A stretch of DNA of 20,068 bases, from the IMG/VR virus record IMGVR_UViG_3300043449_001377, positions 1-20,068 of that record; one strand, written 5' to 3'. Positions within the stretch are counted from its first letter, which is position 1, and every line of letters begins with the position of its first letter. Under the pieces are notes generated by a model. It made no database searches. It was not told where the DNA came from and saw only the letters and a program-made list of their open reading frames with translations. This DNA is from a virus. A program made the translations under genes and the position numbers. Below are positions 1 through 18,003 of the stretch, in pieces.

Positions 1-958
1 ACTGACCGGAGAATACCGGGGTTGGGAAGATTTTGATGTTCTGAGCAGAACCGGTACCGGTGTAGGTCTCAGCAACTACAAAATTCATCAATGAACCAGT
101 AGACTGACGATTTTGTGGGTTGACTGCGTAAACACCCGGAATGGTAAATACAGTACCTCTGGTAACTGTATAACTACTGGTGGTCGTAGCCGACAAGGTG
201 AAGGTGCTCTGGGCATTGTTCTGAACACTACCACCAGCCTGTGCAGCGGGAGTAATGGAGTCAGTGCCAACACGGAACGTACCAGCAGTGTAGTTGCCCA
301 CATTCTGGTCCATTGCAAAGTTGAAGCCCAAGGTACTGTCGCCAAGTGCACCCTTTTTGAAGATTTCAGAAATCGTACCCTGCGGATTAAACAGGTTAGT
401 CAGACCAGAAACGATTCCAACTTCAACAGTCGGGTCAACGACCATATGACGCTGATCATCTACCGGGGCAGCCATCTGGTTCAGTCGAGCACGTGCAGCC
501 AAAATAGCAGCAGTGGCCTCAGCCTGGGTCGTAGCACCATCAGTCAGCTGACCGGGAGTACCAACAAGGTTGAACACGTTGTAGAACTGCTGCAAACCGT
601 CATAATCGATTTTGTTAGCAATTGCTGCAACTGCAGGTTTAATGAACCGATCCGAAAAATCGGAAATGTTCAAGGTCAAATCCTGCGTGGTGAAAGCCAT
701 GTCCACACCAAACTGGGTATCCAGAGTCAGTGGTACATAGGTTTCAACAGAGGATTCAATCTGGAGTGCAGCACCGGTACGACCTACATAACGCGGGGGT
801 TTACGCAGATTGATGGTGGTGCCAATTTTGGCTCCTTCAATCGCGAATTTGTTGTCATACTGGCGGGAAATAGCACGAGTAAACACCAACTGGTTCTGCA
901 AAACTCGCAGAGCCTCGTTAGTGATCATGCTAATGGTAAGCAAGTTGTTGTTAGCCAT
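1..958 (-). CDS. Major capsid (coat) protein, P22-like, C-terminus cut by window edge
   Basis: The minus strand is open from an ATG at 958 to the left edge, giving 319 codons with no stop, so the C-terminus is missing. The N-terminus (MANNNLLTISMITNEALRVL), a following segment rich in GAKIG, NLRKPPRY and FTTQDL, and the ISDFSDRFIKPA stretch near residues 97-108 match the pattern I know from phage coat proteins of the P22 gp5 family. These form the icosahedral shell around a scaffold. The region beyond about residue 225 is Ser/Thr/Gly-rich, as expected of a beta-rich inserted or surface domain. A GAGG ribosome binding site lies about 8 nt before the ATG. The gene follows scaffold, the usual order portal-scaffold-coat, and has its own promoter at 1083-1111, fitting the large amounts of coat needed. 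The family call is from remembered sequence patterns, not a search. Confidence 0.85.
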   Translation of the reverse strand, partial: MANNNLLTISMITNEALRVLQNQLVFTRAISRQYDNKFAIEGAKIGTTINLRKPPRYVGRTGAALQIESSVETYVPLTLDTQFGVDMAFTTQDLTLNISDFSDRFIKPAVAAIANKIDYDGLQQFYNVFNLVGTPGQLTDGATTQAEATAAILAARARLNQMAAPVDDQRHMVVDPTVEVGIVSGLTNLFNPQGTISEIFKKGALGDSTLGFNFAMDQNVGNYTAGTFRVGTDSITPAAQAGGSVQNNAQSTFTLSATTTSSYTVTRGTVFTIPGVYAVNPQNRQSTGSLMNFVVAETYTGTGSAQNIKIFPTPVFSGQ

Positions 959-1045
959 CACTAAGCCTCGAAAGAAATGAAAAGATGTTAGCCTTAACTT
1001 TTCCCTCGGATGCTGCTAGGCTCGCACTTATCCTTGGTTGCCTGA

Positions 1046-1072
1046 AATAGAAACCCGGCCAGCGTTTCTATT
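1046..1072 (-). promoter_or_regulatory. Hairpin in the coat mRNA leader
   Basis: A perfect 9-bp inverted repeat (AATAGAAAC at 1046-1054, GTTTCTATT at 1064-1072) encloses a 9-nt loop. It lies just downstream of the coat promoter and about 90 nt before the coat start, so it would sit at the very 5' end of the coat mRNA. There is no U-run after it on either strand, so it is not an intrinsic terminator. A 5' stem that protects the mRNA from decay is a reasonable inference. Confidence 0.5.
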
Positions 1073-1082
1073 ACGTACGTGG

Positions 1083-1111
1083 ATTTTAACACGTGTCAAA
1101 ATCCACGTCAA
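1083..1111 (-). promoter_or_regulatory. Sigma-70 promoter for the coat gene
   Basis: Read on the minus strand, TTGACG (1111-1106), a 17-nt spacer, then TAAAAT (1088-1083). It sits in the 156-base gap between scaffold and coat and points at coat. The promoter is overlaid by a perfect 11-bp inverted repeat (ACGTGGATTTT at 1077-1087, AAAATCCACGT at 1098-1108), which could be an operator or a hairpin in any read-through transcript from the upstream operon. Confidence 0.65.
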
Positions 1112-1114
1112 CGT

Positions 1115-1975
1115 TCATCTCATTCTGGCCTGTTTACGTGCCAATTCTTCGGCATTACGAGCGGCAATGTACTCTGCTGTACTCATTTCAGAATAATCCT
1201 TGGCATTGCCGGGAGTGCTACCAACAGCCGAGATTGGCTTGATCGGGGTAGGAGCATTACTGGTGCGCCTTGGAGCACGATTAATAATTTCAGCTAAACG
1301 CATTCCGGCTTGAATCGGATTCATATTGGCTATTTCATAAGCCACATCCAGATTCTTGCCCAAAGTGTAGGCGATTTCTGGCCCATTATCAAGACCAAGT
1401 AACGCCTGACGGATGGTTGGATTTTGCGCAAGACGAGGATCAGATGTAATCTGTTCAATTACGCCATCGTAATCAGAATATTTAGCACGGGCTGCTGCCT
1501 CAGCTGTTTCCAATTTCTTCTGCTGGGTTATTTGTTGCTCATACTGCTGGCGCTGCTCGTATTCCTGTTTAACCGCTTGAACCGCTTCCATTTTGGCCGA
1601 TTCCCGCGTGTAGGTCATCATGTCCTGCAAGTAGCGGGGGTCAAACTGCCCACCTACATAATCCTCGGCATTAGGAGCCTCAAGAGTGGGCTGTTGTGCC
1701 GTTTCCTTTGGCGAGAGTCGCTGGAGAAGCTCTTCCTGTTGCTTTAGTACCTGTTCTAGTCTCTCCGCCTGACGACGGGCTTCGTGTTTGTCACGAGTCA
1801 ATTCATTGATTCGGCGTTGATACCACGGTTCCTTCTTTTCTGATCCCTCATCCTCACCAACAGCCTCGGTTTCCTCATGTTCCTGAGATTCCTCAGTCCC
1901 CAACTCAAGCGGAGTATCTGCCTTTGGTGCTTCCGGTTGGACCACTTCCAACTGTTGAATGTTATCTTCATTCAT
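1115..1975 (-). CDS. Capsid scaffolding protein
   Basis: This 286-residue protein fits a scaffold by composition and position. It has a very acidic N-terminal third (Glu-rich, residues 1-48), a long charged helical segment rich in Gln/Glu/Lys/Arg (about 50-165, likely coiled coil), and a basic C-terminus ending AEELARKQARMR. A basic helix-turn-helix tail binds the coat in P22-type scaffolds. It lies between portal and coat, the canonical place. The start ATG at 1975 shares one base with the portal stop (TAATG) and has a GAGGAGA ribosome binding site 7-8 nt upstream. The scaffold role is inferred mainly from composition and synteny, since scaffolds diverge quickly in sequence. Confidence 0.8.
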   Translation of the reverse strand: MNEDNIQQLEVVQPEAPKADTPLELGTEESQEHEETEAVGEDEGSEKKEPWYQRRINELTRDKHEARRQAERLEQVLKQQEELLQRLSPKETAQQPTLEAPNAEDYVGGQFDPRYLQDMMTYTRESAKMEAVQAVKQEYEQRQQYEQQITQQKKLETAEAAARAKYSDYDGVIEQITSDPRLAQNPTIRQALLGLDNGPEIAYTLGKNLDVAYEIANMNPIQAGMRLAEIINRAPRRTSNAPTPIKPISAVGSTPGNAKDYSEMSTAEYIAARNAEELARKQARMR

Positions 1976-4149
1976 TATTCTTTCTCCTCTGGTTTATTTT
2001 CACCGGTTAACGCACCTACATCGGGCTTGCGAGTCATTGCACCGGGACCACGTGATGACCTACCTCCGCTAGCGGGTGCAGCTGGTTGGACTGGTGGCTG
2101 CATAGCGTTTTGTATTGCCATTTGTTCCATTTGGTCAAATTCCACGTCCTGTTCACCAAATGCCGGAACAGTCTGACCTAACATTTTGATGATATTCTCT
2201 TGGATCATGGTTTCAAGACCTTCAGTCTTCTCAATCAGTCCGGCCTCGACTTCCATGCGCTTGGTCTGACTATCAAACCATTCGCGCTCCTTGTCCTGAA
2301 TAGTCATGATTCGTTGGTCACGCAGATATTGAAGCTCCTGACTCATTTGCTCCATCTGACTAGCCATCTGATCCATCATACGCTGAGCTTGGATGACCTG
2401 CGGATCAACCTTCTCACCTTGAGCGGTAGGCTGTAATTCGGGTGGCAACAGCATCTGCAAACGCTTGCTGATCTCTTCGGCACCCGGCCAATCCATATTC
2501 TTCATCATCAGATCACCAATGGTCTGGAATAGGGTCGGATTAGCTTGGGTCAGTGCCAACATCATATTAGCCGCTTCATCACGCTTAGTTGCATAACTAG
2601 GGCCAGAATCACAAACGACGTCGTATTGACCAATTCCAATATTGTAAATGGAGTCGATGGCCGGATTATCAGTGTTCGCAGACGCCTGAGGGAGATTTGG
2701 GTCAATATTAACTTCGCGCGGTGAACCATCTTCACCCAAAATCCGAATGACACGAGCATGATCATAAATTTTTGGAATCATATCAACGACAATGCGACCA
2801 ATCTGACGAATCGACCGGTTTAAATTGTCTTGATAGTGGAAATTACCGGTTTCGGCCTGTTTCTGTCGTAATAGCAGAGCACGACCAGACGTCTCATTGG
2901 ACTGATCACCAAGACTGGGCTGATAAATGCCCATACTCTGCATAATGTCATTTTCAGCTAGCTGGATCGCTTGCATGATTGCCGGCGAAGCTTGCGGAGG
3001 CATAGCGCGTTGAGGTGCGCCAACGGGTGTACCAGCAATGCTAACGGGATCATACTCAAGATAAGCAAGAGATTCTTTGTTTGCACGTCCCCAGTTAGGA
3101 TCACTCTCGAATTGTCCTGATACGCCAATAAAAGGGGCCTTTGGAGCCAGTGCAACATTCTCTGCGTTTGCCGAAAGGTAATAATTGTAAAGCCGTTGAG
3201 CATCTTTTGCATTTCTCACCAGTCCCGAACGATAACACTTACCCTGTAACCAAACTTCGTGACCTACAACGGGTACGATCGGAATATATTTAGTAGGTAC
3301 CTCGGTACGCTCAAGGACTTTATCGCCTATACACTTGGCCCACATACAGCGACGGAGGAACGTGTCGCGGATTTCGCCAGTCTCTGGGTTTTGAATCTGG
3401 GAAGGTTCGTGCTCAATCCAATAATATTCGGCAATGCGTACACTGTCCTTGGTGTACCAACCCTGCATGTCGCCATTGCCAGCGGCATCAAAATTAGTCT
3501 CATCTACTCCGGGATAAAGTCGCTTGAACTCATCCTTGGGAATCTCCTCAGCTAGGATTGCCCATTCTGCGTCGGAACCGTCTGGAGACTTACTATGTGG
3601 ATCATAATAGACCTTGAAGGGATCAGGGATACGGTCAATGTAAATCTCTTGGTCAAAAGAGGTATCGCTAGCCCAGTCATTTCTGACTCTGACGTACCCC
3701 AAGCCAGTGTCAACCTGCCATTCAACAGCCGTATCGTACGCGATTGATGCATTCGAATTATCCTGGATGTGGTGGACTAGCCCCATCAATACTTCAGCTG
3801 TCTCTTGATCTGCACCGTCCGTAGCGGGACGGATACGTATTGACGGAGTATTTTGTCGTATTTCATTGACCACACGGTCACGGAACTGTAGGAGTCTGTT
3901 GACAACGAGCATGGGGCGCTCCTTGCCCGGACGATTTCGGTCATATTTGGCATATTCTGGCCACTGGTCCCCCAAACGCGCAAATCTAACGTCATCTAAC
4001 CGCTCCTGTCTATTTACAGATTCAAATTCAACTGCTTGGTTGAATCGTTCACGAATCGTTTTGAGCAATTCCTTGTCAGGATCACCTTCGGTGGCATCGT
4101 TACCAAGTGCTGCCAATACACCATCTGAATCTTGAATCATTGCATCCAA
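1975..4149 (-). CDS. Portal protein, P22-like
   Basis: This 724-residue protein forms the dodecameric DNA-entry ring at one vertex of the head. Its length matches P22-type portals (about 700 residues). Diagnostic stretches are the N-terminal region with ARLGDQWP and RPMLVVNRL, and the SGRALLLRQKQAETGNF stem/crown region near the middle. The C-terminal part (about 583-665) is Met/Gln/Glu-rich coiled coil, which could be the extended barrel. Its start overlaps the terL end: ATG at 4149 is used here, but a second in-frame ATG at 4140 forms an exact ATGA overlap with the terL stop and could be the real start. Its stop overlaps the scaffold start by one base, so terL, portal and scaffold are probably translationally coupled. 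Confidence 0.88.
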   Translation of the reverse strand: MDAMIQDSDGVLAALGNDATEGDPDKELLKTIRERFNQAVEFESVNRQERLDDVRFARLGDQWPEYAKYDRNRPGKERPMLVVNRLLQFRDRVVNEIRQNTPSIRIRPATDGADQETAEVLMGLVHHIQDNSNASIAYDTAVEWQVDTGLGYVRVRNDWASDTSFDQEIYIDRIPDPFKVYYDPHSKSPDGSDAEWAILAEEIPKDEFKRLYPGVDETNFDAAGNGDMQGWYTKDSVRIAEYYWIEHEPSQIQNPETGEIRDTFLRRCMWAKCIGDKVLERTEVPTKYIPIVPVVGHEVWLQGKCYRSGLVRNAKDAQRLYNYYLSANAENVALAPKAPFIGVSGQFESDPNWGRANKESLAYLEYDPVSIAGTPVGAPQRAMPPQASPAIMQAIQLAENDIMQSMGIYQPSLGDQSNETSGRALLLRQKQAETGNFHYQDNLNRSIRQIGRIVVDMIPKIYDHARVIRILGEDGSPREVNIDPNLPQASANTDNPAIDSIYNIGIGQYDVVCDSGPSYATKRDEAANMMLALTQANPTLFQTIGDLMMKNMDWPGAEEISKRLQMLLPPELQPTAQGEKVDPQVIQAQRMMDQMASQMEQMSQELQYLRDQRIMTIQDKEREWFDSQTKRMEVEAGLIEKTEGLETMIQENIIKMLGQTVPAFGEQDVEFDQMEQMAIQNAMQPPVQPAAPASGGRSSRGPGAMTRKPDVGALTGENKPEEKE

Positions 4150-5399
4150 CCGCCGTTAAATTCATCCACATGACGACGCTTACTTACGTTGTCATTCCTA
4201 AATCCGTCTGCACATAGTGCCAAATATCTGAACGCATCTGCGCCATGACTCCACTCATCATGAAGTGGTCCTTGTGGCTCCATCGTCTTCTGATGAACAG
4301 ACCTACGATAACGCTTGAGGCACTCCTGCAGCTTCTCGGTCTTCTCCTTGTCCATCCAAATACGAGGAAAGGCTAACCTAGCCATTCGAATCCCGTGTTC
4401 AACCTCGCCCACAGGGAGTACCTCGACGGTCCAACCCATTTGAGTCATAAGCTCCGCTGCACTTTTGCCCGTCTTGTAATCACGAGCAACGGCATCATGT
4501 GGGAGCCAGACTTTGCCCCAGTTGTAATTCTTGGCTTTCATCTGGTCACTGTACCAGTCCAAAGTCTTGTGAGTGTTCTCAATGTAGTCAATGATGCGCA
4601 ATTCGGACCCGGCACGTTGCGCAATGATAATTGACATGGCGTCATTCCAGCCCAAGTCAAACACTGCATGTGCTTTCAACAATGGATCGTGCCTAATTAA
4701 TCCAATCCGACCATCCTCGATCATCTGCTGATATTCATCGGCGTAAATTGCGCCTTCGGCCACAGTCATCGGGATGCCTTCCCAGATATTTTGATATCCT
4801 TTAGGATCGACTATTTCCGAGTGCAAGCGCTCCTGCTCCAGTACAGACGGGAACCAAGGGTTATCGCGCCAGTTGATTTTAACTAGGAACGTGTTAGGGG
4901 GCGGCGAATTGATGAATCGTTTATAAGTGTCATCTGTATCGAGATAAGGGTTGAGTGTCACCCATATTTCTGATCCGTCGCGGCGTATCGTGGGTATGAG
5001 AATGTCCCACGATTTCTTGGAGACGGTCTGTCCTTCCTCCACCCATACCAAGTCACAACCTTCGAAGGACTTGATTGATTCGACTGTGTGGGAAGCAAGA
5101 CCTGCAAAACTAAACGTAGATCCGTTTGCGCCACGTATCTCAGACTCAGTGACAGTATAAAATCCACCAAGACCTAACTCCTGGATTTGGTCAGTTAATA
5201 GAGTATGAACGGAATTTTTAATTGATTTCTGCACTTCACGTGCACAAAGAATGCGGAGGGGGCGTTCCGCTGCCTTGATTAATGCTGCACGAGCAAAGGC
5301 CCAAGACTTGCCACTACCACGTCCCCCATAAGCGACTTTATATCGATATGGGTCGAATAAACCCTTAAGAATCGGCGGGAATTTCGCTATCGTCGTCAT
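4137..5399 (-). CDS. terL: Terminase large subunit (packaging ATPase-nuclease)
   Basis: This 420-residue protein cuts concatemeric DNA and pumps it into the prohead through the portal. The Walker A motif GGRGSGKS is at 25-32, the Walker B with catalytic Glu (CDLVWVEE) at about 115-122, and the coupling motif TLNP at 148-151. The RNase H-like nuclease begins with FDLGWND (Asp248), with a second acidic site in HDAVARD (about 299-305) and a third in GADAFRY near 393. This order matches the PBSX/Terminase_3 family at about its normal length. It overlaps terS by 35 nt upstream and portal downstream. All catalytic residues are present. Confidence 0.95.
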   Translation of the reverse strand: MTTIAKFPPILKGLFDPYRYKVAYGGRGSGKSWAFARAALIKAAERPLRILCAREVQKSIKNSVHTLLTDQIQELGLGGFYTVTESEIRGANGSTFSFAGLASHTVESIKSFEGCDLVWVEEGQTVSKKSWDILIPTIRRDGSEIWVTLNPYLDTDDTYKRFINSPPPNTFLVKINWRDNPWFPSVLEQERLHSEIVDPKGYQNIWEGIPMTVAEGAIYADEYQQMIEDGRIGLIRHDPLLKAHAVFDLGWNDAMSIIIAQRAGSELRIIDYIENTHKTLDWYSDQMKAKNYNWGKVWLPHDAVARDYKTGKSAAELMTQMGWTVEVLPVGEVEHGIRMARLAFPRIWMDKEKTEKLQECLKRYRRSVHQKTMEPQGPLHDEWSHGADAFRYLALCADGFRNDNVSKRRHVDEFNGGWMQ

Positions 5400-5808
5400 C
5401 TTCTAATGGCTCATTACCAAATACTACGCGTATTGAATGGGTTATTGGCCCACCATCAGCACCGGTAATCTCCTTACGTTCTACGTAAATGCCACTAGCC
5501 TTGCCTCTATTGAGTTCTGCATTAATAGCCGCACTAAACTGCCCATTTTCCTGAGCACCACGACCTAATTCCTCTAGCCGCTTTAGGTGGTCCTCAAGGG
5601 TAACTCGTGCACGTCTATTAGACTCGTCGCGCAATTCCTTAAGTCTGTGTTGCACTTTGGGGTTGGCCAGCATCTTGGATGCACTTTCTCTAGCCGTCTT
5701 GCGTGTGCCAGTTTGGTGATCATATGCGGCTACCCAAGCATCGACGTTAGTCATGCCAGCATGAATGTTCAAGCAGAATAATTCCTGCTTGTCCGTTAGT
5801 TTTGTCAT
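5365..5808 (-). CDS. terS: Terminase small subunit
   Basis: This 147-residue protein recognises phage DNA and loads it onto the large terminase. The opening LTDKQELFCLNIHAGMTNVDAWVAAY-type segment, the ANPKVQHRLKELRDE helix and the LEDHLKRLEELGRGA oligomerisation helix are typical of the Terminase_2 family. The C-terminus is very acidic (EDDDDSE). I start it at ATG 5808, which has an AGGA site 5 nt upstream. A longer open frame begins at 5865, but its first codons lie upstream of the -10 element of the promoter at 5833-5861, so that start cannot be on the transcript. First gene of the late operon, overlapping terL by 35 nt. Confidence 0.88.
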   Translation of the reverse strand: MTKLTDKQELFCLNIHAGMTNVDAWVAAYDHQTGTRKTARESASKMLANPKVQHRLKELRDESNRRARVTLEDHLKRLEELGRGAQENGQFSAAINAELNRGKASGIYVERKEITGADGGPITHSIRVVFGNEPLEDDDDSEIPADS

Positions 5809-5832
5809 AGGTCCTAGTTCAGCCATGGCAAC

Positions 5833-5861
5833 ATTATAACCCATGCATTGGGTGTTGTCAA
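5833..5861 (-). promoter_or_regulatory. Consensus sigma-70 promoter for the head/packaging operon
   Basis: On the minus strand: TTGACA (5861-5856), a 17-nt spacer, TATAAT (5838-5833), both hexamers perfect. The spacer carries a short inverted repeat (ACCCA, 5 nt, TGGGT). Transcription would start near 5826, leaving a leader of about 18 nt before terS. A perfect host-type promoter at the head of a structural operon means no phage sigma factor is needed to read it. Confidence 0.85.
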
Positions 5862-5983
5862 ACATAACCTTAAATATGGTACCCCCTATACTTTTTTCTT
5901 TTTTTTCTAAAAAACATTTTAAAATTCTTTTTTTTAATCTCTCTCTCTCATGAAGTAAAAAAAAAGTCTAATAGTTACCCATA
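5862..5983. other. Pyrimidine/T-tract spacer between divergent promoters
   Basis: No gene here. From about 5884 to 5968 the plus strand is almost entirely T/C, then A: several runs of six to eight T, a CT repeat at about 5938-5949, and a run of nine A near 5957-5965. It separates the late promoter (minus) from the replication promoter (plus) and is untranscribed if both promoters are used as drawn. An origin or an upstream activating (UP-element-like) role is possible. Nothing in the sequence proves either. Confidence 0.5.
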
Positions 5984-8505: not shown

Positions 8506-8964
8506 ATGAAAGCAATCTATAGAGACAGCCAAGAAGTCACGATCATCGAAACCAAGGAGCGTGGGTGGACTTACGTGCAATTTGCTGATGGCATGGAACG
8601 GAACGTACGTAGCAATGAATTGGTATTGATCGAGGAAGAGAAAAAGGAGTATACTCTAGCCGAGGCAATTGCTGCCCAAGACCATTTCGAAATGACTCCC
8701 AGGTTGCGCACCTGCGGCAATACCCAGTATAACCCAAATCACTACGTTAAAACCAAGTCCATCAATGGTAATTACACGTTGAATAACGGCGACCTGATTG
8801 CCAGAGAGTGGGCAGCATTGACCCTTGAGGAAATATATGATGCATCCTCAATAGCACTTGGCGAGAGCGTTGAAATATTGAAAGCTAAATATAACCACCT
8901 AAATCCTGGCATGCAAAGAATGTGCCTCGGTAATCGTGTTCGCGCAGCAAGTAAAAAGAAATGA
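8506..8964 (+). CDS. Conserved-looking phage protein, 152 residues, function unknown
   Basis: No function is recognised. The N-terminal 45 residues (ERGWTYVQFADGMERNVRSNEL) look like a small beta-barrel of the SH3/KOW kind. The middle and C-terminal parts are charged, with a basic end (RVRAASKKK) and a NPGMQRMCLGNRVRA segment that could bind nucleic acid. The stop overlaps the helicase start (ATGA), so the two are likely translated together, suggesting a role beside the helicase. Confidence 0.7.
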   Translation: MKAIYRDSQEVTIIETKERGWTYVQFADGMERNVRSNELVLIEEEKKEYTLAEAIAAQDHFEMTPRLRTCGNTQYNPNHYVKTKSINGNYTLNNGDLIAREWAALTLEEIYDASSIALGESVEILKAKYNHLNPGMQRMCLGNRVRAASKKK

Positions 8965-10631
8965 TTAATATAACAGCAGAAAAGGGCAAGTTCATGGTAA
9001 CTTGCCCATACCATGAGGCAGCGGCTGTACGAGGTGTTCCCGGCAGTCGCTGGTCCAGCCACCGTAAGCAATGGGTGATACCCTTCAGCAGAAAAGCAGC
9101 GGAACGGCTGTCATCTTTGGGTGATGCAGTCGTGTTCGAACGGCCAGCGATGGAGTTAATGGCCCAAGCAGTCAGGAACAGTCGACCACCCAAGGACAAT
9201 TTCCCAGCGTGGTACAAATTCAAGACCAAACCAATGGCACACCAGAAACGGGCACTCGATTTCCTGTGGGAAAAGAAAGACGCTGCTTTATTCATGGCGA
9301 TGAGGACCGGCAAGACCAAGACCACCATTGATTGGTTTACCGCTCTGAAAATGGATGGTAAGATCGACCACGTTCTGGTGTTTTGCCCGTTGTCTGTTCG
9401 TGGATCATGGGAAGCCCAAATTGAGGAGCATTGTCCTATTCCGGTGGAAGTCGGGCGGTATGATCTATCCAAAGCAGCGGGACGAACGGCTCAAGGAGCT
9501 TTTTCCTTGGACGAAAGTCCATTCAAGGCTATGATAGTAGGGATCGAATCGATGGCGACAGGAGGAGCCTCGGAATGGGTCCGTCAGTATATAGCCGAGA
9601 ACAAGCGGATTTTGTGCGTCGTGGATGAGTCACACCTAATTAAGACTCATAATGCCAACAGGACCGAGAAGATAACCATCCTGGGTAAATTATGTGACTA
9701 CCGGATTATCCTTACTGGCACACCAATTGCCGCCAGCCCATTGGACTTATATTCTCAATTCCGATTCCTTGACCCAGATATTATAGGTTACAGTGACTTT
9801 TACTCGTTTAAGGCTCGATACGCCATCATGGGCGGTTACGAGAACAAACAAGTAATTGGGTACGACAATCTTGAGGAATTAATGCGGGAAGTGGCTCCGC
9901 ATACGTTCCAAGTGAATGCCGAGGAAGTAGCCGACCTGCCACCTAAAGTGTACATGACCAGAACCGTGCAGCTGTCGCAGACTTCGATGAAGTTATACAA
10001 CGACATTAAGAAGCACAAGATAATCGAACACAAAGGCAGTCAGTTAGTGCTGTCCAATGCTTTGGACCGATTAACCCGGTTATCATTGTTGGTGAACGGG
10101 GTAATGACCACTGGGGAATCAGGTGATTTCGAGTATGGTTGGGTGTCTAATGCCAAAATCAACGAGTTGATGGACTTGATTCAAGAAAATCCAGTGCCAA
10201 CAGTTATTTGGACCACTGGCCGAATGGAACTGCGTAAGATTGTTCAAACACTAAACGAGGCAGGTTATGATACAAGAGAAATTCATGGTGGAGTCAAAGA
10301 AAACGACCGAATTACAGCTGTCGACGACTTCCAATCAGGAAAGGTTAGATACCTTGTGGCGAATACAGCTGTTGGAGGAACTGGCATCAAGCTGGCCAGA
10401 GCCAGAATGCTCGTCTACATGTCGAACTCGTTCAAATATGTCGACCGCAAGCAGAGCGAGGAACGAGCAACAGATTTCCTTAACCCCGGTGAATCTGTTT
10501 GCGTGGTTGATATTGTTGCTGATGGGACAGTAGACACCCAAGTGATCCAACCAGCACTGCAAGCCAAATTGGACGTTGCCATGTACGTCAATAGCCACAT
10601 TAAAGAGCTAAAATTGACAGAAGGATTGTGA
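8961..10631 (+). CDS. SNF2-family helicase, SMARCAL1/HARP-like
   Basis: This 556-residue superfamily 2 translocase probably remodels or anneals forks during replication. An N-terminal segment (about 1-55, with PGSRWSSHRKQWVIP) resembles the HARP-type domain that precedes the motor in SMARCAL1-like proteins. The motor has Walker A in MRTGKTK (114-120), the DESH box at 222-225, motif III LTGTPIA at 251-257, and motif VI QSEERATDF at about 498-506. Both RecA-like lobes look complete. The start overlaps the previous stop by 4 nt. Its last codons contain the -35 box of the next promoter. Confidence 0.88.
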   Translation: MINITAEKGKFMVTCPYHEAAAVRGVPGSRWSSHRKQWVIPFSRKAAERLSSLGDAVVFERPAMELMAQAVRNSRPPKDNFPAWYKFKTKPMAHQKRALDFLWEKKDAALFMAMRTGKTKTTIDWFTALKMDGKIDHVLVFCPLSVRGSWEAQIEEHCPIPVEVGRYDLSKAAGRTAQGAFSLDESPFKAMIVGIESMATGGASEWVRQYIAENKRILCVVDESHLIKTHNANRTEKITILGKLCDYRIILTGTPIAASPLDLYSQFRFLDPDIIGYSDFYSFKARYAIMGGYENKQVIGYDNLEELMREVAPHTFQVNAEEVADLPPKVYMTRTVQLSQTSMKLYNDIKKHKIIEHKGSQLVLSNALDRLTRLSLLVNGVMTTGESGDFEYGWVSNAKINELMDLIQENPVPTVIWTTGRMELRKIVQTLNEAGYDTREIHGGVKENDRITAVDDFQSGKVRYLVANTAVGGTGIKLARARMLVYMSNSFKYVDRKQSEERATDFLNPGESVCVVDIVADGTVDTQVIQPALQAKLDVAMYVNSHIKELKLTEGL

Positions 10632-10642: not shown

Positions 10643-10656
10643 AAAACCTTCGAGAT

Positions 10657-10671
10657 AACTGATAACGGAGA
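10657..10671 (+). promoter_or_regulatory. Recurrent leader/RBS motif, copy 3
   Basis: AACTGATAACGGAGA, 13 of 15 bases as in copy 1, just behind the -10 box, with GGAG 7 nt before ATG 10677. Confidence 0.6.
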
Positions 10672-10676
10672 TAACG

Positions 10677-10820: not shown

Positions 10821-11128
10821 TGGCCAGAGTATTTGTAACCCAAGAAAGTGGTAGTGTGGATTACCTGCCAGCTTGCCAATTTGGTGATTTGATGTTTGTA
10901 ACTGGGTCCAACCAGCGAATAAGCCACCTCCCCCAGTCAATTGACACCCAGTTGGTGCTGGAGCAGATTAACACAGTTTTGGCGGATTTTAACCCGGACG
11001 AGGATTACTTGCTGTGCACTGGGTCACCCACTATAATGGCCATTTGTGGTGCTACACTTGGTGAAGACCTACACAAAATTCTCAGCTGGGACAACCGCGC
11101 TCATAAATATTTTGAAGTGATAATATAA
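10820..11128 (+). CDS. Small conserved-type phage protein, 102 residues
   Basis: It resembles a family of uncharacterised phage proteins that read roughly V-[V/T]-Q-E near the N-terminus, then DYLLCTGSPTIMAI in the middle, and end with LSWDNRAHKYFEV. Function is unknown to me. The predicted pattern is alternating strands and helices without membrane spans. One-base overlaps with both neighbours (TAATG) tie its translation to them. Confidence 0.7.
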   Translation: MARVFVTQESGSVDYLPACQFGDLMFVTGSNQRISHLPQSIDTQLVLEQINTVLADFNPDEDYLLCTGSPTIMAICGATLGEDLHKILSWDNRAHKYFEVII

Positions 11129-11553
11129 TGAATAATTACTCAGACGACCTCAGGGAAATGACTGTAGTTCAGCTAGCTGGCGAACTTCGGAAGTTGAAAG
11201 AGCTTAAGGAGTCAATGGAAGAGGACCTTAAGGAAACGAACAAGTACATCGAAGAGATCACCAGGCAGATCCTCCCCGAGAAGATGGATGACCAAGGTAT
11301 CTCCAATATTAAGATTGATGGTGTTGGCAGGATCACGCTGCGTGGAGAAGTATACGCGTCGATCCTGGCCGCGAATCGCGACGCAGCTTATCAGTGGTTG
11401 CGTGACACCGGCAGAGCATCGCTTATCAGTAACACGGTCAACGCCAGTTCACTGAAAGCAGCATGCAAAGAGTGGCTGAAGAATGGTGAGGAAATCCCTG
11501 AAGACCTCATCAAAGTGACGCCAATTACCGTAGCTGTATTAACGAGGACCTAA
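11128..11553 (+). CDS. Coiled-coil protein, 141 residues, possibly Gp157-like
   Basis: Residues 8-50 form a strongly charged heptad-like helix (LAGELRKLKELKESMEEDLK). They are followed by a beta segment (NIKIDGVGRITLRG) and a helical C-terminal half with AYQWLRDTGRASL and EWLKNGEEIPEDL. This layout of coiled coil then beta hairpin recalls siphovirus Gp157-type proteins, but I cannot assign it. It lies directly before a candidate ssDNA-binding protein, suggesting a replication or recombination role. Confidence 0.7.
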   Translation: MNNYSDDLREMTVVQLAGELRKLKELKESMEEDLKETNKYIEEITRQILPEKMDDQGISNIKIDGVGRITLRGEVYASILAANRDAAYQWLRDTGRASLISNTVNASSLKAACKEWLKNGEEIPEDLIKVTPITVAVLTRT

Positions 11554-11555
11554 AA

Positions 11556-12251
11556 ATGGCTAAAGAAGTAGTTAAAACCCAAGAACAGATGCCAGCATAT
11601 TTGAACGCCGGAACTGTACGCGGAACGGAAAATGTAACCCAGTCTGATTTGATCATTCCTCGTCTGGAGTTGGTCCAGTCCCTCAGCCCCTGCCGGAAGA
11701 AGACTGACCCCAGCTACATCGAGGGTGCCGACGAGGGTATGTTGTACAACAATGTCACTCGGGAGCTTTATGGACCATCCGTCAAATTGGTGCCGGTATC
11801 GTACCGGAAGGAGTACCTGATATGGAAGGACCGTCAGAAGGGTGGCGGATTCCGTGGCTCATTCCCGACTATGGAGGCAGCCATCCAAGCGAAGAGGGAT
11901 TTGGAGGACGGGATCGACTGCGAGATAATGGACACAGCCCAACACTTCTGCCTGTTGTTGAACAACGGGAGTGTCGAGGAAATCGTTGTCTCGATGCAGC
12001 GCTCCAAGCTGAAGACCAGCCGCAAGTGGAACAGCCTGATCAGGATAGCGGGTGTTGATAGCTTCGCTAAATCCTACAACCTGTTTGCTGTCACCCAGAC
12101 CAATGCCATGAACCAGGATTACTGGGGCTATGACGTGTCAAATGATGCATTTGTTGCCGAGGACGTCTACCGCAAAGCGGAGATCCTCTGGTCACAAGTT
12201 AATGACGGACAAGTGAAGGTCAACGCAGACCACGACGAGTCCGAATACTGA
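11556..12251 (+). CDS. Candidate ssDNA-binding replication protein, 231 residues
   Basis: The family is not firmly recognised. The N-terminus has the DLIIPRLELVQ motif followed by GMLYNNVTRELYG and KLVPVSYRKEYLIW, a pattern I associate with phage DNA-binding proteins of the gp2.5/ssDNA-binding sort. The middle is basic (SMQRSKLKTSRKWNSL, about 147-162), and the C-terminus is an acidic tail ending in an aromatic residue (NADHDESEY), like the interaction tail of SSB or T7 gp2.5. It sits between helicase and polymerase genes and just before two SSB-like mini-genes. An intact start ATG lies 2 nt after the previous stop. Confidence 0.6.
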   Translation: MAKEVVKTQEQMPAYLNAGTVRGTENVTQSDLIIPRLELVQSLSPCRKKTDPSYIEGADEGMLYNNVTRELYGPSVKLVPVSYRKEYLIWKDRQKGGGFRGSFPTMEAAIQAKRDLEDGIDCEIMDTAQHFCLLLNNGSVEEIVVSMQRSKLKTSRKWNSLIRIAGVDSFAKSYNLFAVTQTNAMNQDYWGYDVSNDAFVAEDVYRKAEILWSQVNDGQVKVNADHDESEY

Positions 12252-12337: not shown

Positions 12338-12577
12338 ATGGTTTACGAAATTAAACCGAATATCGGCTCCCTTTTCAAGAACAGCTACAAAACAGCTGGC
12401 GATAAGAAGCCTGATTATACTGGCTTTTGTGTCATAGAAGGGAACGAATATAAAATGTATGCGTGGATCAACACAGCTAGGAATGGCACCAAGTATATGT
12501 ACCTGAATTTCCAGCTGATCGAGCCAATTAATCGTTCTGAATCTGTGGGCGTTGACTTTGAGGAGGATAAAGAATAA
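12338..12577 (+). CDS. SSB-like mini-protein, copy A (no VPF tip)
   Basis: This 79-residue protein is nearly the same as the next gene. The core (GSLFKN, KKPDYTG, EYKMYAWINTARNGTKYMYLNF) resembles small phage proteins with an OB-like beta fold related to DUF736-type proteins, plausibly ssDNA binding. It ends in FEEDKE, so the acidic tail is there but lacks the final hydrophobic Pro-Phe. AGGA lies upstream of ATG 12338, and the stop overlaps the start of copy B by one base. The function is inferred from the fold pattern and from the tail of copy B. Confidence 0.7.
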   Translation: MVYEIKPNIGSLFKNSYKTAGDKKPDYTGFCVIEGNEYKMYAWINTARNGTKYMYLNFQLIEPINRSESVGVDFEEDKE

Positions 12578-12819
12578 TGGCTTACGAAACAAAACCAAAT
12601 ACCGGCTCCCTTTTCAAGAACAGCTACAAAACAGCTGGCGATAAGAAGCCTGATTATACTGGCACTTGTGTTGTGGATGGTAACGAATATAGAATATCCG
12701 CGTGGATCAACACGGCCAGAAATGGCACTAAATATATGTCCCTGAATTTCCAGCTGATCGAGCCAATTAATCGTTCTGAATCGGTGGGCGCTGACTTTGA
12801 GGAGGATGTGCCATTCTGA
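12577..12819 (+). CDS. SSB-like mini-protein, copy B, with SSB-type C-terminal tip
   Basis: This 80-residue tandem copy of the preceding gene differs at about 16 positions, mostly in the middle and tail. It ends DFEEDVPF, which closely mimics the conserved tip of bacterial SSB (DFDDDIPF in E. coli). That tip docks host replication and repair proteins such as PriA, RecO, RecQ and exonuclease I. A protein of this size with a beta-rich core and this tip is a good candidate for a minimal phage SSB that plugs into the host SSB interactome. Last gene of the operon before the GC-rich noncoding island. Confidence 0.75.
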   Translation: MAYETKPNTGSLFKNSYKTAGDKKPDYTGTCVVDGNEYRISAWINTARNGTKYMSLNFQLIEPINRSESVGADFEEDVPF

Positions 12820-13174: not shown

Positions 13175-13438
13175 ATGGCCAGACACAAACACGCAGACGT
13201 GATCCACGCATGGGCAGATGGTGCTGAGATTCAGCAATTTTGTGGTGATGGGTGGTATGACGACTCTGACACGCCAAATTGGTTTGAGGACGCCGAATAC
13301 CGCATCAAGCCACGCACAGTGAAACATGAGGGAGCGTTTGGTGCTTTTCTGGTGAATGGCCTAAATGCTAACATATGCGCCGAATGCGTCAATAAAATGC
13401 GCCAGACGTTAAATCCGGAACCCGATGAGGCAGCATGA
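13175..13438 (+). CDS. Small phage protein, 87 residues, function unknown
   Basis: The N-terminal 47 residues (HADVIHAWADGAEIQ, then W..D..PNW, then EYRIKPRT) match a common family of small uncharacterised phage proteins, in which an Ala-rich helix is followed by a small beta unit ending in YRIKP. The C-terminal 40 residues include NICAECVNKM, with a CxxC pair that might hold a metal. AAGGAG lies 7 nt before the ATG. The stop overlaps the polymerase start by 4 nt (ATGA), so the two are co-translated. Confidence 0.75.
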   Translation: MARHKHADVIHAWADGAEIQQFCGDGWYDDSDTPNWFEDAEYRIKPRTVKHEGAFGAFLVNGLNANICAECVNKMRQTLNPEPDEAA

Positions 13439-15246
13439 ATTTTCCCAATTTAGATGGCCAGATAATAGCGTTTGATACTGAGACGACTGGCCTCAATATA
13501 ACTGATAAAGCTTTTGGCTTTTCCGTTGCCGTTGATGGATGGAGTGGCTACTTTGATATTCGTGAGACTCCCAAGGCTCTCCTTTGGCTTTCCGAATGCC
13601 TTCCTGAGCGCATCGTAGCCCATAATGCATCATTCGATTACCGGATGATCACCAGAGCAGGAGCCAAGCTGGATATCAATTTGCTTGATGATACCGTGAT
13701 TCGGGCCTGTTTAATTAACGAGCATCACTTGTCTTATGGCTTGGATGATTTATGCCGGAAGTATCTTGGTGACGCCAAGCAGGAGGAAATATACAAGGAG
13801 TTAGCCAAGCTGTACGGTGGGCTAGCCACCCGTAATGTGCAAATGAAGAACATTTCCAGAGCACCAGCTGAAATCGTAGCCCCATATGCCATCAAGGACG
13901 TTGAGCTAACGTTGAAGCTGTGGAACTGGCAGGAGGAGGAGATCAAGCGACAGGGGATCGAGCAAATAGTCGAATTTGAACGTGGCTTGATGCCAACGTT
14001 GATTCGTGCTGAAATGCGCGGGATACGGGTGGACTTGGATGCTGCCCACGAAGCCCAAAAAGCACTAACTTTGGAGTTAGATGAACAGCAAGCCCAAATT
14101 AACGAGATCAACAGTAAACCTTTTAACGTTAACAGTACCCCTCAAGTGCGTGGACTGTTTAAACCAACTAGGAATGGAGACAGTTGGATTTGTGATAATG
14201 GGACGATCCTTGACTCCACAGACAGTGGTGGACCATGTATCAATTCTGAGGCCCTACGACGAATGGAGGGAGACCCCAGAGCAGATCTTATTTTATCGAT
14301 CCGTTCATTAATTAAGACTCGTGACACTTTCCTTGGTAGCCATGTAATTAAATCTGAACATAATAGACGCGTATATCCTACAATCAACCAGAACAAAGGT
14401 GAATCTGGTGGAACTGCCACGGGCCGGTTATCTTATACCGGACCTGCAATGCAGCAAATTCCAAGTCGGAATAAGAAGGTTGCCGCCATCGTCAAACCCA
14501 TTTTTCTTCCCGATGAGGGTCATTGTTGGGTCGATGCTGACATGGCCTCTTTTGAGGTTAGGGTGTTTGCCCATTTTGCTAACGATCCTGTAATCAACCA
14601 GATGTATCTGGACGACCCAAATACCGACTTCCATCAGGCTGTCGCTGATCTGACCGGGTTACCCAGAAATGCTTCATACTCTGGCCAGCCAAACGCCAAA
14701 CAGCTAAACCTGTCGATGATCTTTAATGCTGGGAACGGTGCCATCGCAGATAAGATGGGTATGGAATGGTGGTGGGACGAATTTCTCGACAAAAGCGGGA
14801 AGCCCGTTCGATACAAGCAAGCTGGCCCCGATGCCCTCCGAGTGATCGACAAATACCACGCGACACTGCCTGGGGTTAAAACTCTGGTCAACGGAGCCAA
14901 GCAAGCGGTGATGGAACGTGGCTACGTCCGCACTAAATTGGGTAGACGGATTAGATTCCCGGACAAACGTTATGCATATAAGGCATCTGGGCTGCTGATC
15001 CAGTCCACTGCAGCCGACATTAACAAGCAGAATTGGATAGCCATTGAGGAAGTCACCAAGAAATACGGAGGCCATTTGATCCTAAACACTCATGACTCCT
15101 ATTCTATGAGCCTACCAAAAGATACATGGGAAGCCGCGTGGAGAGACGTGGAGAACAAAGTAGCTACATCGTATCCTTGGTTCCGTGTTCCGCTCGTCCT
15201 TGAGCTTTCCGGAGTTGGGTCGAACTGGTGGGAAGCGGTGAAATAA
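13435..15246 (+). CDS. PolA-family DNA polymerase with 3'-5' exonuclease (candidate DpoZ)
   Basis: This 603-residue protein is the phage replicase. The exonuclease has Exo I FDTETTG (Asp14, Glu16), Exo II AHNASFDYRM, and Exo III YAIKD (Tyr151, Asp155), so proofreading looks intact. The polymerase has motif A DADMASFEVR (Asp369, Glu374), motif B around Lys422 (NAKQLNLSMIF) and motif C HDS (His553, Asp554). Compared with E. coli Pol I, motif B has Gln for Arg754, Leu for Phe762 and Phe for Tyr766, and motif C has Ser for the Glu of HDE. It has no 5' nuclease domain. Given purZ, mazZ and datZ nearby, it probably belongs with the DpoZ group that copies with dZTP. That assignment is inferred from context. 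Confidence 0.9.
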   Translation: MNFPNLDGQIIAFDTETTGLNITDKAFGFSVAVDGWSGYFDIRETPKALLWLSECLPERIVAHNASFDYRMITRAGAKLDINLLDDTVIRACLINEHHLSYGLDDLCRKYLGDAKQEEIYKELAKLYGGLATRNVQMKNISRAPAEIVAPYAIKDVELTLKLWNWQEEEIKRQGIEQIVEFERGLMPTLIRAEMRGIRVDLDAAHEAQKALTLELDEQQAQINEINSKPFNVNSTPQVRGLFKPTRNGDSWICDNGTILDSTDSGGPCINSEALRRMEGDPRADLILSIRSLIKTRDTFLGSHVIKSEHNRRVYPTINQNKGESGGTATGRLSYTGPAMQQIPSRNKKVAAIVKPIFLPDEGHCWVDADMASFEVRVFAHFANDPVINQMYLDDPNTDFHQAVADLTGLPRNASYSGQPNAKQLNLSMIFNAGNGAIADKMGMEWWWDEFLDKSGKPVRYKQAGPDALRVIDKYHATLPGVKTLVNGAKQAVMERGYVRTKLGRRIRFPDKRYAYKASGLLIQSTAADINKQNWIAIEEVTKKYGGHLILNTHDSYSMSLPKDTWEAAWRDVENKVATSYPWFRVPLVLELSGVGSNWWEAVK

Positions 15247-15464
15247 TGTACCAGAATAAACCAATGTCGGAGGTCCAACCAACCTGCCGGTTAATTGAGG
15301 ACGAATTGCCACCTATGAGCAAGGACGTCTGGCTTATCACCAAATATGGCCATGGTTATCGTGGCCGTTACGACCGAAATGACGACACCATCGTGGCATG
15401 GTCCCCACTACCCAAATTAACGGAGGAACAACGCAAATACATTGACGACCTGTTCGGATTGTAG
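15246..15464 (+). CDS. DUF551-like mini-protein, 72 residues
   Basis: The pattern DELPPMSKDVWLITKYG, then GRYDR, then IVAWSPLPKL fits the small DUF551-type domain found in many phage proteins, whose function is unknown. I start it at ATG 15246, which overlaps the polymerase stop by one base (TAATG). An upstream in-frame start at 15228 lies inside polymerase. Its 3' end contains the promoter of the Z-genome operon. Confidence 0.75.
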   Translation: MYQNKPMSEVQPTCRLIEDELPPMSKDVWLITKYGHGYRGRYDRNDDTIVAWSPLPKLTEEQRKYIDDLFGL

Positions 15465-15470
15465 TAGAAT
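15442..15470 (+). promoter_or_regulatory. Sigma-70 promoter of the Z-genome operon
   Basis: TTGACG (15442-15447), a 17-nt spacer, TAGAAT (15465-15470), inside the end of the preceding gene and 28 nt before purZ. The downstream AATAAC..ACTCCAT stretch is shared with the promoter at 8233-8261. A diverged copy of the recurrent leader motif (15482-15495) supplies the purZ ribosome binding site (AGAGG). Confidence 0.7.
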
Positions 15471-15498
15471 AACGACTCCATAATCAATAGAGGCAAAA

Positions 15499-16539
15499 AT
15501 GAGAGAATTACACGTTATTATTGACGGTCAGTATGGTTCGACTGGCAAAGGATTACTTGCTGGTATTATCGCTCAGGAAAAGCAAATAGACACTATTTGT
15601 ACGGCATGGGGTCCCAACGCTGGGCATACTTTTATTGATCGTTTTGGGCGTAAATTCATCCATACGATGCTGGCCAATGGCATCGTTGGAGCCAGCGTCA
15701 AGCGAGTCCTAATTGGTCCGGGATCAGTAATCAATCCGGAGAATTTGGAGAAGGAGATAGCCGAAGCTGGTGCCGTACTAGGTAAGGTCCAAGTAATTAT
15801 TCATCCACACGCTGCCATCGTCACTGAGGAACATCGGGAGACGGAGGATAAGACGATGACTGCCATTGGCAGCACCAAGAAGGGTGTGGGTGAGGCAGTA
15901 ATTCAACGCATTCGACGTGATCCAAAGAATCTAAACGTGGCCATTAAATGCAAGCACGAGTTGATTCGTGATTTGGTGGTTGATGCTAGGACGTACGATT
16001 GGTTCTTAGATCGATCCGAGAAAGTGATGGTAGAAGGTGCTCAGGGATTCAGCCTGTCGATGTACCACGGGTTCTACCCGTACACTACCAGTCGCGACGT
16101 GTCGACACATCAAGTGCTGGCGGACTGTGGGATTCCATTTAACGCGGTCCCGACCAGTGTGTACGGATGTTTCCGGACTTATCCCATTCGAGTGGCTAAC
16201 CGGTACAATGAAAATGGTGAAATGGTAGGTACTTCTGGCCCCTGTTACCCAGACCAAATGGAAATGAGTTGGGCTGATCTGGACATGGAACCTGAATTAA
16301 CCACCGTCACCAAGCTGCCACGTAGAATTTTCACGTGGTCAGAGACTCAATATTTGGATGCCATTAGAATGTTGGGCGTGACTCACCCATTTATCAACTT
16401 CATGAACTATATAAAGGACGAGGATTACCAACACAAATTTATTGGCCGATTGAACGAGATTGGTCCGAGGGTCCGTTATTTGGGTTTTGGTCCCACGGAA
16501 ATGGAAGTAATCAACGCTGACAACGCATGGTATAAATAA
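15499..16539 (+). CDS. purZ: 2-aminoadenylosuccinate synthetase PurZ
   Basis: This 346-residue PurA homologue joins dGMP and aspartate into 2-amino-2'-deoxyadenylosuccinate, the committed step of dZTP synthesis. Host PurB and kinases finish the pathway. The N-terminal loop reads DGQYGSTGKG, where PurA has GQWGDEGKGK. The catalytic Asp13 of PurA is replaced by Ser14, the hallmark of PurZ that makes room for the guanine 2-amino group. GPNAGHT (His43) matches the PurA catalytic-histidine loop, and EGAQGFSL, HGFYPYTTS and SGPCYPDQ are the later substrate loops. It is shorter than bacterial PurA (about 430 residues), as phage PurZ proteins are. First gene after its promoter, overlapping mazZ by one base. 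Confidence 0.94.
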   Translation: MRELHVIIDGQYGSTGKGLLAGIIAQEKQIDTICTAWGPNAGHTFIDRFGRKFIHTMLANGIVGASVKRVLIGPGSVINPENLEKEIAEAGAVLGKVQVIIHPHAAIVTEEHRETEDKTMTAIGSTKKGVGEAVIQRIRRDPKNLNVAIKCKHELIRDLVVDARTYDWFLDRSEKVMVEGAQGFSLSMYHGFYPYTTSRDVSTHQVLADCGIPFNAVPTSVYGCFRTYPIRVANRYNENGEMVGTSGPCYPDQMEMSWADLDMEPELTTVTKLPRRIFTWSETQYLDAIRMLGVTHPFINFMNYIKDEDYQHKFIGRLNEIGPRVRYLGFGPTEMEVINADNAWYK

Positions 16540-16844
16540 TGGCACACGATATAGAAATGCTGCAGGAAGATATCGTCCAATGGCTTGACCGTGAGCACCC
16601 AAATAGAAAAGAGCAAGCGGTATGGGCGAAATTGTTCGAGGAACTGGCGGAGGTAATGGTTGATCCCACCGATATTGGTGAATGGGCTGATATCATCATC
16701 GTTCAGCTGGATCTGGCTATGAGATATGGTCATTATATGGACGATATTCTAATGATAGCTCGTCAGAAGCTGGAAATAAACAAAAGTCGGAAATGGGAAA
16801 TAAACAAGCACGGGGTAATGAAGCATGTTAAATCTACGACATAA
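16539..16844 (+). CDS. mazZ: MazG-like dGTP pyrophosphohydrolase MazZ
   Basis: This 101-residue all-helical protein has the MazG metal-binding signature: EELAE (Glu34, Glu35, Glu38) and EWADI (Glu48, Asp51). In Z-DNA phages the MazZ enzyme cleaves dGTP, and in some cases GTP or dATP, to the monophosphate, which feeds dGMP to PurZ. Position between purZ and datZ makes this role very likely here, though substrate choice cannot be read from the sequence. The start shares a base with the purZ stop, and the end overlaps datZ by 20 nt. Confidence 0.9.
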   Translation: MAHDIEMLQEDIVQWLDREHPNRKEQAVWAKLFEELAEVMVDPTDIGEWADIIIVQLDLAMRYGHYMDDILMIARQKLEINKSRKWEINKHGVMKHVKSTT

Positions 16845-17370
16845 ATTAAGAGCGTGTCACGTCAAACGGTGGCACATTGTCGAGTGTACCAAGGTCCAGA
16901 CGGTAGCCGAACATTCGTTTAACGTGGCTCTGCTAGCCGAGGAAATATGTAAATTGATTGGTGCCGATCAAGATTTTAAATTGATGGTTCAGCGTTATGC
17001 CATCCACCACGATATACCCGAAGTGGTATTAGGCGATCTTCCAACCAGCGTCAAATCGGTATTTGGTGATGACGCTTTAGAAGAAGTGGAAAAAATATCT
17101 GATATGTTGGACCCACTATCGGGAATGGATTCACCCGCTATTCACCGTGTGGTAAAATTAGCTGACCTGTTGGATTCGGTCATATTCTTGGCTCAACATG
17201 GTGTAGGAACTCACGCTAGAAAGGTGCGTGAGGTAATCATAAAGGATATCGGAATGCTCATGTTCTCATTTGACTACCAAGAGCGCATTAAATTGCAGGA
17301 ATTAGTCAATCAGATTAAAATATGGGATACCGATCAAGACCTAGGAGACGATGTATTATGGCCGAATTAA
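16825..17370 (+). CDS. datZ: HD-domain dATP triphosphohydrolase DatZ
   Basis: This 181-residue HD-superfamily enzyme resembles the YfbR 5'-deoxynucleotidases. The metal ligands are visible: His30 in TVAEHSF, His62-Asp63 in AIHHDIPEV, and Asp114 in KLADLLDS, with the GDLPTSVK substrate loop at 70-77. In Z-DNA phages DatZ strips dATP to deoxyadenosine and triphosphate, so the polymerase finds little dATP and adenine is kept out of the genome. It overlaps mazZ (20 nt) and the next gene (13 nt), so the cluster is one translational unit. The family could also hydrolyse monophosphates, but the cluster context favours DatZ. Confidence 0.92.
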   Translation: MLNLRHKLRACHVKRWHIVECTKVQTVAEHSFNVALLAEEICKLIGADQDFKLMVQRYAIHHDIPEVVLGDLPTSVKSVFGDDALEEVEKISDMLDPLSGMDSPAIHRVVKLADLLDSVIFLAQHGVGTHARKVREVIIKDIGMLMFSFDYQERIKLQELVNQIKIWDTDQDLGDDVLWPN

Positions 17371-17621
17371 AGGATATTTTGTCTGATCGTGGACAACAAT
17401 ATGGTGACTTTGCTGAACAGGCTTTATTATCCCAAACATTAAAATATTGGGCAATGCCAAAGTCAGTAGTTAGTGAATGGGAAGCCTACCAAAGAGAAGC
17501 AATGGAAATGATCATCCATAAAATATCCAGAATAACCAACGGCAATCCGGATAACGTGGACTCTTGGCGAGATATAGCCGGATATGCTACACTTGTAGCT
17601 GACCGATTAGAGTTTGAGTAA
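17358..17621 (+). CDS. DUF6378-like phage protein, 87 residues
   Basis: The pattern LSDRGQQYGDF, then EAMEMIIHKISRI, then DSWRDIAGYATLVADRLE matches a common uncharacterised phage family (DUF6378-type, from memory). The Glu-rich helix followed by a D..RDIAGYA helix is reminiscent of MazG-type pyrophosphohydrolases, so a nucleotide-related role beside datZ is conceivable but unproven. The start is ATG 17358, with GGAGA about 12 nt upstream inside datZ. A longer frame begins at 17322, but those codons are a shadow of datZ. Its 3' end overlaps the antisense nuclease gene by 35 nt. Confidence 0.8.
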   Translation: MAELKDILSDRGQQYGDFAEQALLSQTLKYWAMPKSVVSEWEAYQREAMEMIIHKISRITNGNPDNVDSWRDIAGYATLVADRLEFE

Positions 17622-18003
17622 ACTCATCCCAATCGGGACAATCTGATGCCCATAAAGCGACTTCTTTATGGGCATCAAACGACTGACCGTTGCCAACCAG
17701 ATAACCAGTGGTAGGCCCAAATAACAAATAATGTTTATTACAATACAGGAGCAAAAATGTATGATGAAGACGAATAAAATCCCGTTGATCTTGGGTGAAG
17801 TGTGGGATTACCACTCTCTGGCCCTTCCGAGGCTCGTAGGACTTCAGTTCGACCATACCAGCTACTCTAGTAGCCATTCCCGGTATAGCGATCGAAAAGA
17901 AGACGTCCGGAGTGCCTTCGTCAATACGGTTCTCGATTCGTTGAGCACGCCACCGGGAACCCATTCCCTTACGGACCTTTTGCCACAACAAGGATTCTAA
18001 CAT
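17587..18003 (-). CDS. PD-(D/E)XK nuclease, VRR-NUC/resolvase-like
   Basis: This 138-residue protein has the core of a small PD-(D/E)XK nuclease: an N-terminal Glu helix (LESLLWQKV), then IDEGTPDVFFSI (Asp at about 33) and MVELKSYEP (Glu-x-Lys at about 52-54), followed by FTQDQRDFIRL and a strand-rich end. These residues match VRR-NUC or Holliday-junction-type enzymes that cut branched DNA. It is the only minus-strand gene inside the plus-strand block and has its own extended -10 promoter. A later ATG (GMGSRW) exists, but it would lose the N-terminal Glu helix. Roles in resolving replication forks or in exclusion of competing DNA are both possible. Confidence 0.78.
   Translation of the reverse strand: MLESLLWQKVRKGMGSRWRAQRIENRIDEGTPDVFFSIAIPGMATRVAGMVELKSYEPRKGQRVVIPHFTQDQRDFIRLHHTFLLLYCNKHYLLFGPTTGYLVGNGQSFDAHKEVALWASDCPDWDEFTQTLIGQLQV
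17645..17676. repeat. Perfect 13-bp inverted repeat inside the nuclease gene, behind the Z operon
   Basis: GATGCCCATAAAG (17645-17657) and CTTTATGGGCATC (17664-17676) with a 6-nt loop. It lies 23 nt past the stop of the last plus-strand gene of the Z operon and within the antisense nuclease coding sequence. No U-run follows on either strand, so a classic terminator is not supported. It could protect the 3' end of the plus transcript or be a protein-binding site. Confidence 0.75.

Follow-up and report, generated by a model that had tools for sequence, protein, structure and literature searches.

An uncultured virus with a P22-type head and a predicted PurZ-class 2-aminoadenine DNA synthesis system that includes a DpoZ-type polymerase

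Introduction

Does an uncultured virus with P22-type head genes encode a system for making DNA in which 2-aminoadenine (Z) takes the place of adenine, and what is the history of such a combination? This question is raised by IMG/VR record IMGVR_UViG_3300043449_001377, whose full length of 20,068 bases is the window analysed here. The record stops within the coat gene and is therefore a fragment of a virus genome; the phage is probably podoviral, uncultured, and equipped with a P22-type head. The features that we assigned are listed in Table 1. No tRNAs or known RNA families were detected in the window, and a host search via close PurZ relatives in bacterial and archaeal genomes returned none.

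Table 1 Features assigned in the window (positions count from its first base).
Feature	Position	Strand	Evidence
P22-type head/packaging: coat, scaffold, portal, TerL, TerS	2..5865	-	PF11651, PF16510, PF04466, PF03592
RepB-primase/PriCT/VapE primase-helicase, 702 aa	5984..8092	+	PF16793, PF08708, PF05272
SNF2-type superfamily II helicase	8961..10631	+	synteny with Z phages
Pam3 gp34-like protein	11556..12251	+	PF23977 E 4e-63; synteny with Z loci
dpoZ, phiVC8-type Z-preferring family A DNA polymerase (predicted), 603 aa	13435..15246	+	NF038380, PDB 7pbk, insertions
Small ORF separating dpoZ from purZ	15246..15464 (ORF opens 15228)	+	weak relatives only
Candidate promoter-like TTGACG-17-TAGAAT, 5' of purZ	15442..15470	+	10/12 match
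purZ, 2-aminoadenylosuccinate synthetase (predicted), 346 aa	15499..16539	+	NF038379, PDB 7odx, kept residues
mazZ, MazZ-1 type (d)GTP pyrophosphohydrolase (predicted), stand-alone, 101 aa	16539..16844	+	PF04447, PDB 7ody, kept residues
datZ, HD-type dATP triphosphohydrolase (predicted), 181 aa	16825..17370	+	phrog_7076, PDB 6zpa, kept residues
DUF6378 protein	17358..17621	+	PF19905 E 3e-8
Small nuclease-like protein, phrog_2165 group	17587..18003	-	phrog_2165 E 7e-12

Results and discussion

A complete triad with conserved active sites

A preliminary description of this DNA had reported a complete purZ-mazZ-datZ triad with overlapping ends, and our analysis bears this out: three intact reading frames lie on one strand where it had placed them, with purZ and mazZ overlapping by 1 nt (TAATG) and mazZ and datZ by 20 nt. 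PurZ scored 335 bits against the NCBIfam PurZ model NF038379 (cut-off 300) and far under the cut-off of every NCBIfam PurA model. It also matched the PHROG family "2-aminooxy adenylosuccinate synthetase" (E 1e-77) and PF00709 of the PurA superfamily, and its closest solved structure was S-2L PurZ (7odx; E 2e-80). The MazG-type pyrophosphohydrolase and HD-type dATPase were likewise correctly named, as judged by family models, solved-structure homologues and residue checks. MazZ matched the Pfam dATP/dGTP pyrophosphohydrolase family PF04447 (E 2e-11), with S-2L MazZ (7ody; E 1e-10) as its sole PDB match, and DatZ matched the PHROG dATP triphosphohydrolase family phrog_7076 (E 2e-26), with S-2L DatZ (6zpa; E 2e-15) as its best PDB match.

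Residues were compared using published structural numbering (PMC8342488, PMC8065100, PMC8599892). The PurZ-specific serine that had been claimed is present, since S14 aligns with S23 of S-2L, a position held by Asp in PurA; V232, T268, T271, R275, N300 and F301 are also retained, and N303 corresponds to Q in S-2L and N in phiVC8. MazZ retains E34, E35, E38, E48, D51, D58, K77, N81 and W86, so that the S-2L MazG-HisE metal site (E34/E35/E38/E50/D53) and D60/K76/N80/W85 are all aligned and identical. DatZ retains R15, W16, I18, H30, H62, D63, K77, K111 and D114, covering the S-2L metal ligands (H34/H66/D67/D119), the phosphate residues (R19/K81/K116) and W20/I22. Two substitutions were seen: H20 of MazZ replaces the O6-contacting N20 of S-2L at a position that is variable among 84 relatives, and S75 of DatZ replaces P79 of S-2L at a position that is variable among 115 relatives. 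The triad is well preserved, with the S-2L substrate and metal residues kept bar these few variable positions.

A phiVC8-class polymerase beside the triad

The polymerase had been described as PolA-type, which is correct as to family A but understates the case, as it is a DpoZ of the phiVC8 class, with 854 bits against the NCBIfam model DpoZ_1 (NF038380; cut-off 500), the signature insertions and F430. It matched PDB 7pbk (E 7e-204) and was ~55% identical to DpoZ of phiVC8, an enzyme that prefers Z (PMC8599892, PMC8342488). A phiVC8-type DpoZ is recognised by three insertions, a steric-gate Phe, L455, G548 and the model cut-off. The three insertions of the window's polymerase align with those of phiVC8, F430 is the Phe at the steric gate, and L426 and G519 stand at the two other positions; R411 and S555 are also retained.

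All four genes whose co-location marks a Z-genome phage (purZ, datZ, mazZ and a Z-capable polymerase) were found together at 13435-17370. The DpoZ assignment strengthens the claim of Z, since with DpoZ beside the triad the set becomes a four-enzyme Z system and Z-DNA a strong prediction. Judging from the sequence, we consider it highly probable that the window encodes a complete PurZ-class system for Z-DNA synthesis.

With regard to transcription, the triad had been placed under one promoter. A sigma-70-like match does precede purZ (Table 1), and its first base, 15442, is where the preliminary description began the triad. When the 100 bp preceding purZ were shuffled, 1.25% of the permutations contained a match that good, and the plus strand of the window holds 6 of them against an expectation of 2.3. 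This gives weak support to a single promoter. It is plausible that the element drives the triad, but the triad follows dpoZ almost without gaps, so that read-through is equally possible.

Proposed pathway and extent of replacement

In the pathway that we propose, MazZ would convert (d)GTP to (d)GMP, and PurZ would join dGMP and aspartate, using ATP or dATP, to form dSMP. Conversion of dSMP to dZTP would fall to PurB and kinases, steps that are supplied by the host. DatZ would strip dATP of its phosphates, and DpoZ would copy the DNA with a preference for Z. Given a four-enzyme system, the phage genome should carry Z for most or all of its A, and this would protect it against many host nucleases. 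The sequence itself shows which enzymes are encoded, that their frames are intact and which active-site residues they keep, and we infer the reactions and their specificity from the studied homologues of S-2L, phiVC8 and SH-Ab 15497. Family models, homologues of solved structure and checks of individual residues support the predicted Z-DNA and this mechanism.

It is possible, though quite unlikely in our estimation, that the enzymes are active but that Z replaces only part of A, owing to a less selective enzyme or to a refill of dATP by the host. MazZ H20 and DatZ S75 are two base-contacting positions unlike those of S-2L, and the S-2L triad expressed in E. coli brought Z into DNA in place of only part of A (PMC8342488). 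Nonetheless, the variability of both positions across relatives argues against such a reading, as does the presence in the window of DpoZ, which S-2L lacks. Replacement of most or all A remains the preferred prediction.

A P22-type head joined to a Z module

The P22-like head genes and the AEP-VapE primase that had been named are both present. The P22 coat (91 bits), P22 portal (561 bits) and Terminase_3 (128 bits) matches were all over cut-off, and the primase is a RepB-primase/PriCT/VapE primase-helicase. The combination with the triad had further been noted for this lineage; its uncommon part is the P22-like head, since the triad, PolA-type polymerase and primase are an ordinary set in Z phages (phiVC8, ZP6 and K300). 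A P22-type portal over cut-off was found in only 4 of 64 IMG/VR Z records and in none of the 10 Z isolates.

At ~70-94% identity, the head genes resemble those of P22-like contigs that yielded no purZ. The closest relatives come from environmental contigs, to which the portal is 84-86% identical, the coat as much as 94%, the scaffold 70-78% and TerL 70-72% (90% in contig L089); a search of 38 of these P22-like records, many of them fragments, found no PurZ. One such contig of 37.6 kb (G038, also L085) resembles the window in its portal (84% identical), coat (86%) and TerL (71%) but differs in its replication module, which consists of a primase-helicase, a Sak4-like protein and a Cas4-type exonuclease; neither PurZ nor a family A polymerase was found in it. 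By comparison, no relative that we found exceeds ~61% identity to dpoZ or the Z genes.

This drop in identity might suggest that an assembler joined a P22-type head from one virus to a Z module from another, which would leave the Z cluster real but place it in a different phage, and no other contig found spans both this head subgroup and a Z cluster. A single-sequence search for a contig running from this primase or dpoZ yielded none of use. We nevertheless judge a chimera to be improbable, by a wide measure, because L089, from another metagenome, repeats the primase-TerS-TerL-portal order (its primase is 76% identical over the part that L089 holds), because the gene order from 8506 onward is as in other Z loci, and because the G+C content is even (head 0.482, primase 0.473, dpoZ 0.480). 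P22-type heads in other Z records also argue against it.

A genuine mosaic is the reading that we adopt, with a head and a Z module that very likely differ in history. The portal tree placed the window inside a P22-like group that yielded no purZ, and a constraint uniting all five Z-linked P22 portals in one clade was rejected (p 0.0018, in a tree that contains long branches). The simplest reading of these sequences would be that Z modules and P22-type heads were joined more than once. The lineage, a P22-headed Z phage, looks new. We also considered a swap between purZ and dpoZ within the Z module. Placing the window in the environmental PurZ group is rejected by the DpoZ tree (p 6e-5), yet PurZ itself gives no grounds for rejecting the phiVC8-type grouping (p 0.53), and so no swap is claimed.

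Z loci in environmental viruses

We surveyed 121 purZ loci, including a few redundant ones, drawn from two IMG/VR scans, ten isolates and the window. DatZ was present in 118 and DpoZ, whose relatives were recovered by an alignment search, in 112; the 9 in which DpoZ was not found comprise S-2L and loci truncated near purZ. MazZ-1 was detected in 92 ORFs and MazZ-2 in 17. As environmental viruses often carry the set and the chemistry of Z has been published (PMC8342488, PMC12884076), the triad itself is not new. That purZ instead encodes an ordinary PurA-type enzyme which supplies AMP for host takeover, with general nucleotide scavengers as its neighbours, is scarcely credible: although PurZ belongs to the PurA superfamily and phages without Z also have MazG-like and HD enzymes, it passes the PurZ cut-off, far misses those for PurA and carries the diagnostic Ser and PurZ residues, and DpoZ is present.

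In 11 of the surveyed loci (L162, L171, L178, L184, L187, L188, L199, L201, L203, L206 and L207), DUF5664 lies 3' of datZ, and neither MazZ-1 nor MazZ-2 was detected. DUF5664 may be the sole dGTP-cleaving enzyme of these loci. The DUF5664 protein of Arthrobacter phage Wayne cleaves dATP and dGTP (PMC12884076).

Other genes around the triad are also shared with Z loci. The Pam3 gp34-like protein is 50-58% identical to the best of its Z-locus counterparts, and relatives of the phrog_2165 protein numbered 62 ORFs of Z loci after iteration. The latter, which follows the Z cluster on the minus strand, carries the PHROG label "DNA helicase", yet has the size and setting of a small nuclease. Two ORFs at 12338-12577 and 12577-12819 match each other's profile and form a tandem duplicate, with relatives directly 5' of dpoZ in many Z loci. 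For the small ORF between dpoZ and purZ, weak relatives (36-38% identity) occur only 5' of terL in P22-like contigs, and none were found in Z loci.

DUF6378, a candidate accessory gene

At the end of datZ, the DUF6378 ORF opens at 17322, but the start at 17358 is preferred for its ribosome-binding context and its agreement with where the family begins; from there the gene overlaps datZ by 13 nt. DUF6378 was found in 73 of the 121 Z loci, including those of phiVC8, K300, ZP6, Bm1 and BUCT555, and in 1 of 37 P22-like records that gave no purZ match. DUF5664 was found in 20 Z loci, and the two never occurred together (0/121, with ~12 expected if independent). This exclusion was not accepted as proof of equivalent function, as a phylogeny-controlled sign test gave only p 0.125-0.5 and DUF6378 is also widespread in phages outside the Z group. 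Kinship of DUF6378 with DUF5664 or MazZ found no support either: the profiles were compared by hhalign, with a probability of 0.1-0.5% against MazZ-1 and DUF5664, and the predicted structure, which is all helical, had no convincing PDB match in a structure search.

We hypothesise a role for DUF6378 in nucleotide-pool control. The bolder proposal, that it is a further component of Z metabolism, a dNTP-pool enzyme standing in for the DUF5664 domain of other Z phages, and that the Z replication module moves as a cassette between phages whose heads are unrelated, appears doubtful to us. Judging by titles and abstracts, none of the three papers found to name DUF6378 is about Z-DNA. In phage ctXG1253 (L156, MW202665.1), the stretch at 9386-11435 contains a DUF6378 gene together with others that are annotated as a pyrimidine hydroxymethylase, an NTP-PPase and a dCMP deaminase, and it is probably another DNA-base modification cluster.

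Comparison with known Z phages

The window shares with S-2L the order purZ-mazZ-datZ, the overlapping gene ends and a stand-alone MazZ-1, and the two PurZ proteins are 44% identical. S-2L differs in having no DpoZ, its polymerase being a PrimPol (PMC8065100), and its head is not of the P22 type. The Vibrio and Alteromonas podoviruses phiVC8 and ZP6 are alike in DpoZ (~52-55% identical), PurZ, DatZ, the helicase, the phrog_2165 protein and DUF6378, in a similar order, but they have MazZ-2 where the window has MazZ-1, their primase sits between dpoZ and purZ, and P22-type portal and coat are absent. BUCT555 (Stenotrophomonas) and Bm1 (Burkholderia) share MazZ-1, DatZ, DpoZ (55%) and DUF6378 with the window; Bm1 differs in its tail-sheath (contractile) structure, and BUCT555 has only a sub-threshold match to the P22 portal. 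Acinetobacter phage SH-Ab 15497 has a PurZ that is 44% identical to ours, together with DatZ and a DpoZ-type polymerase, but its MazZ is fused to DUF5664 and a P22-type head is absent.

Against this background, what is new here is the DpoZ assignment, the P22-type mosaic and the association with DUF6378. An uncultured P22-headed lineage joins the Z phages; its Z replication module adjoins a head module whose close relatives seem to use different genes for replication. Heads with and without a Z module offer a natural comparison for the uptake of a non-standard base, and DUF6378 becomes a named candidate accessory gene, which could be examined in phiVC8 or another cultured phage.
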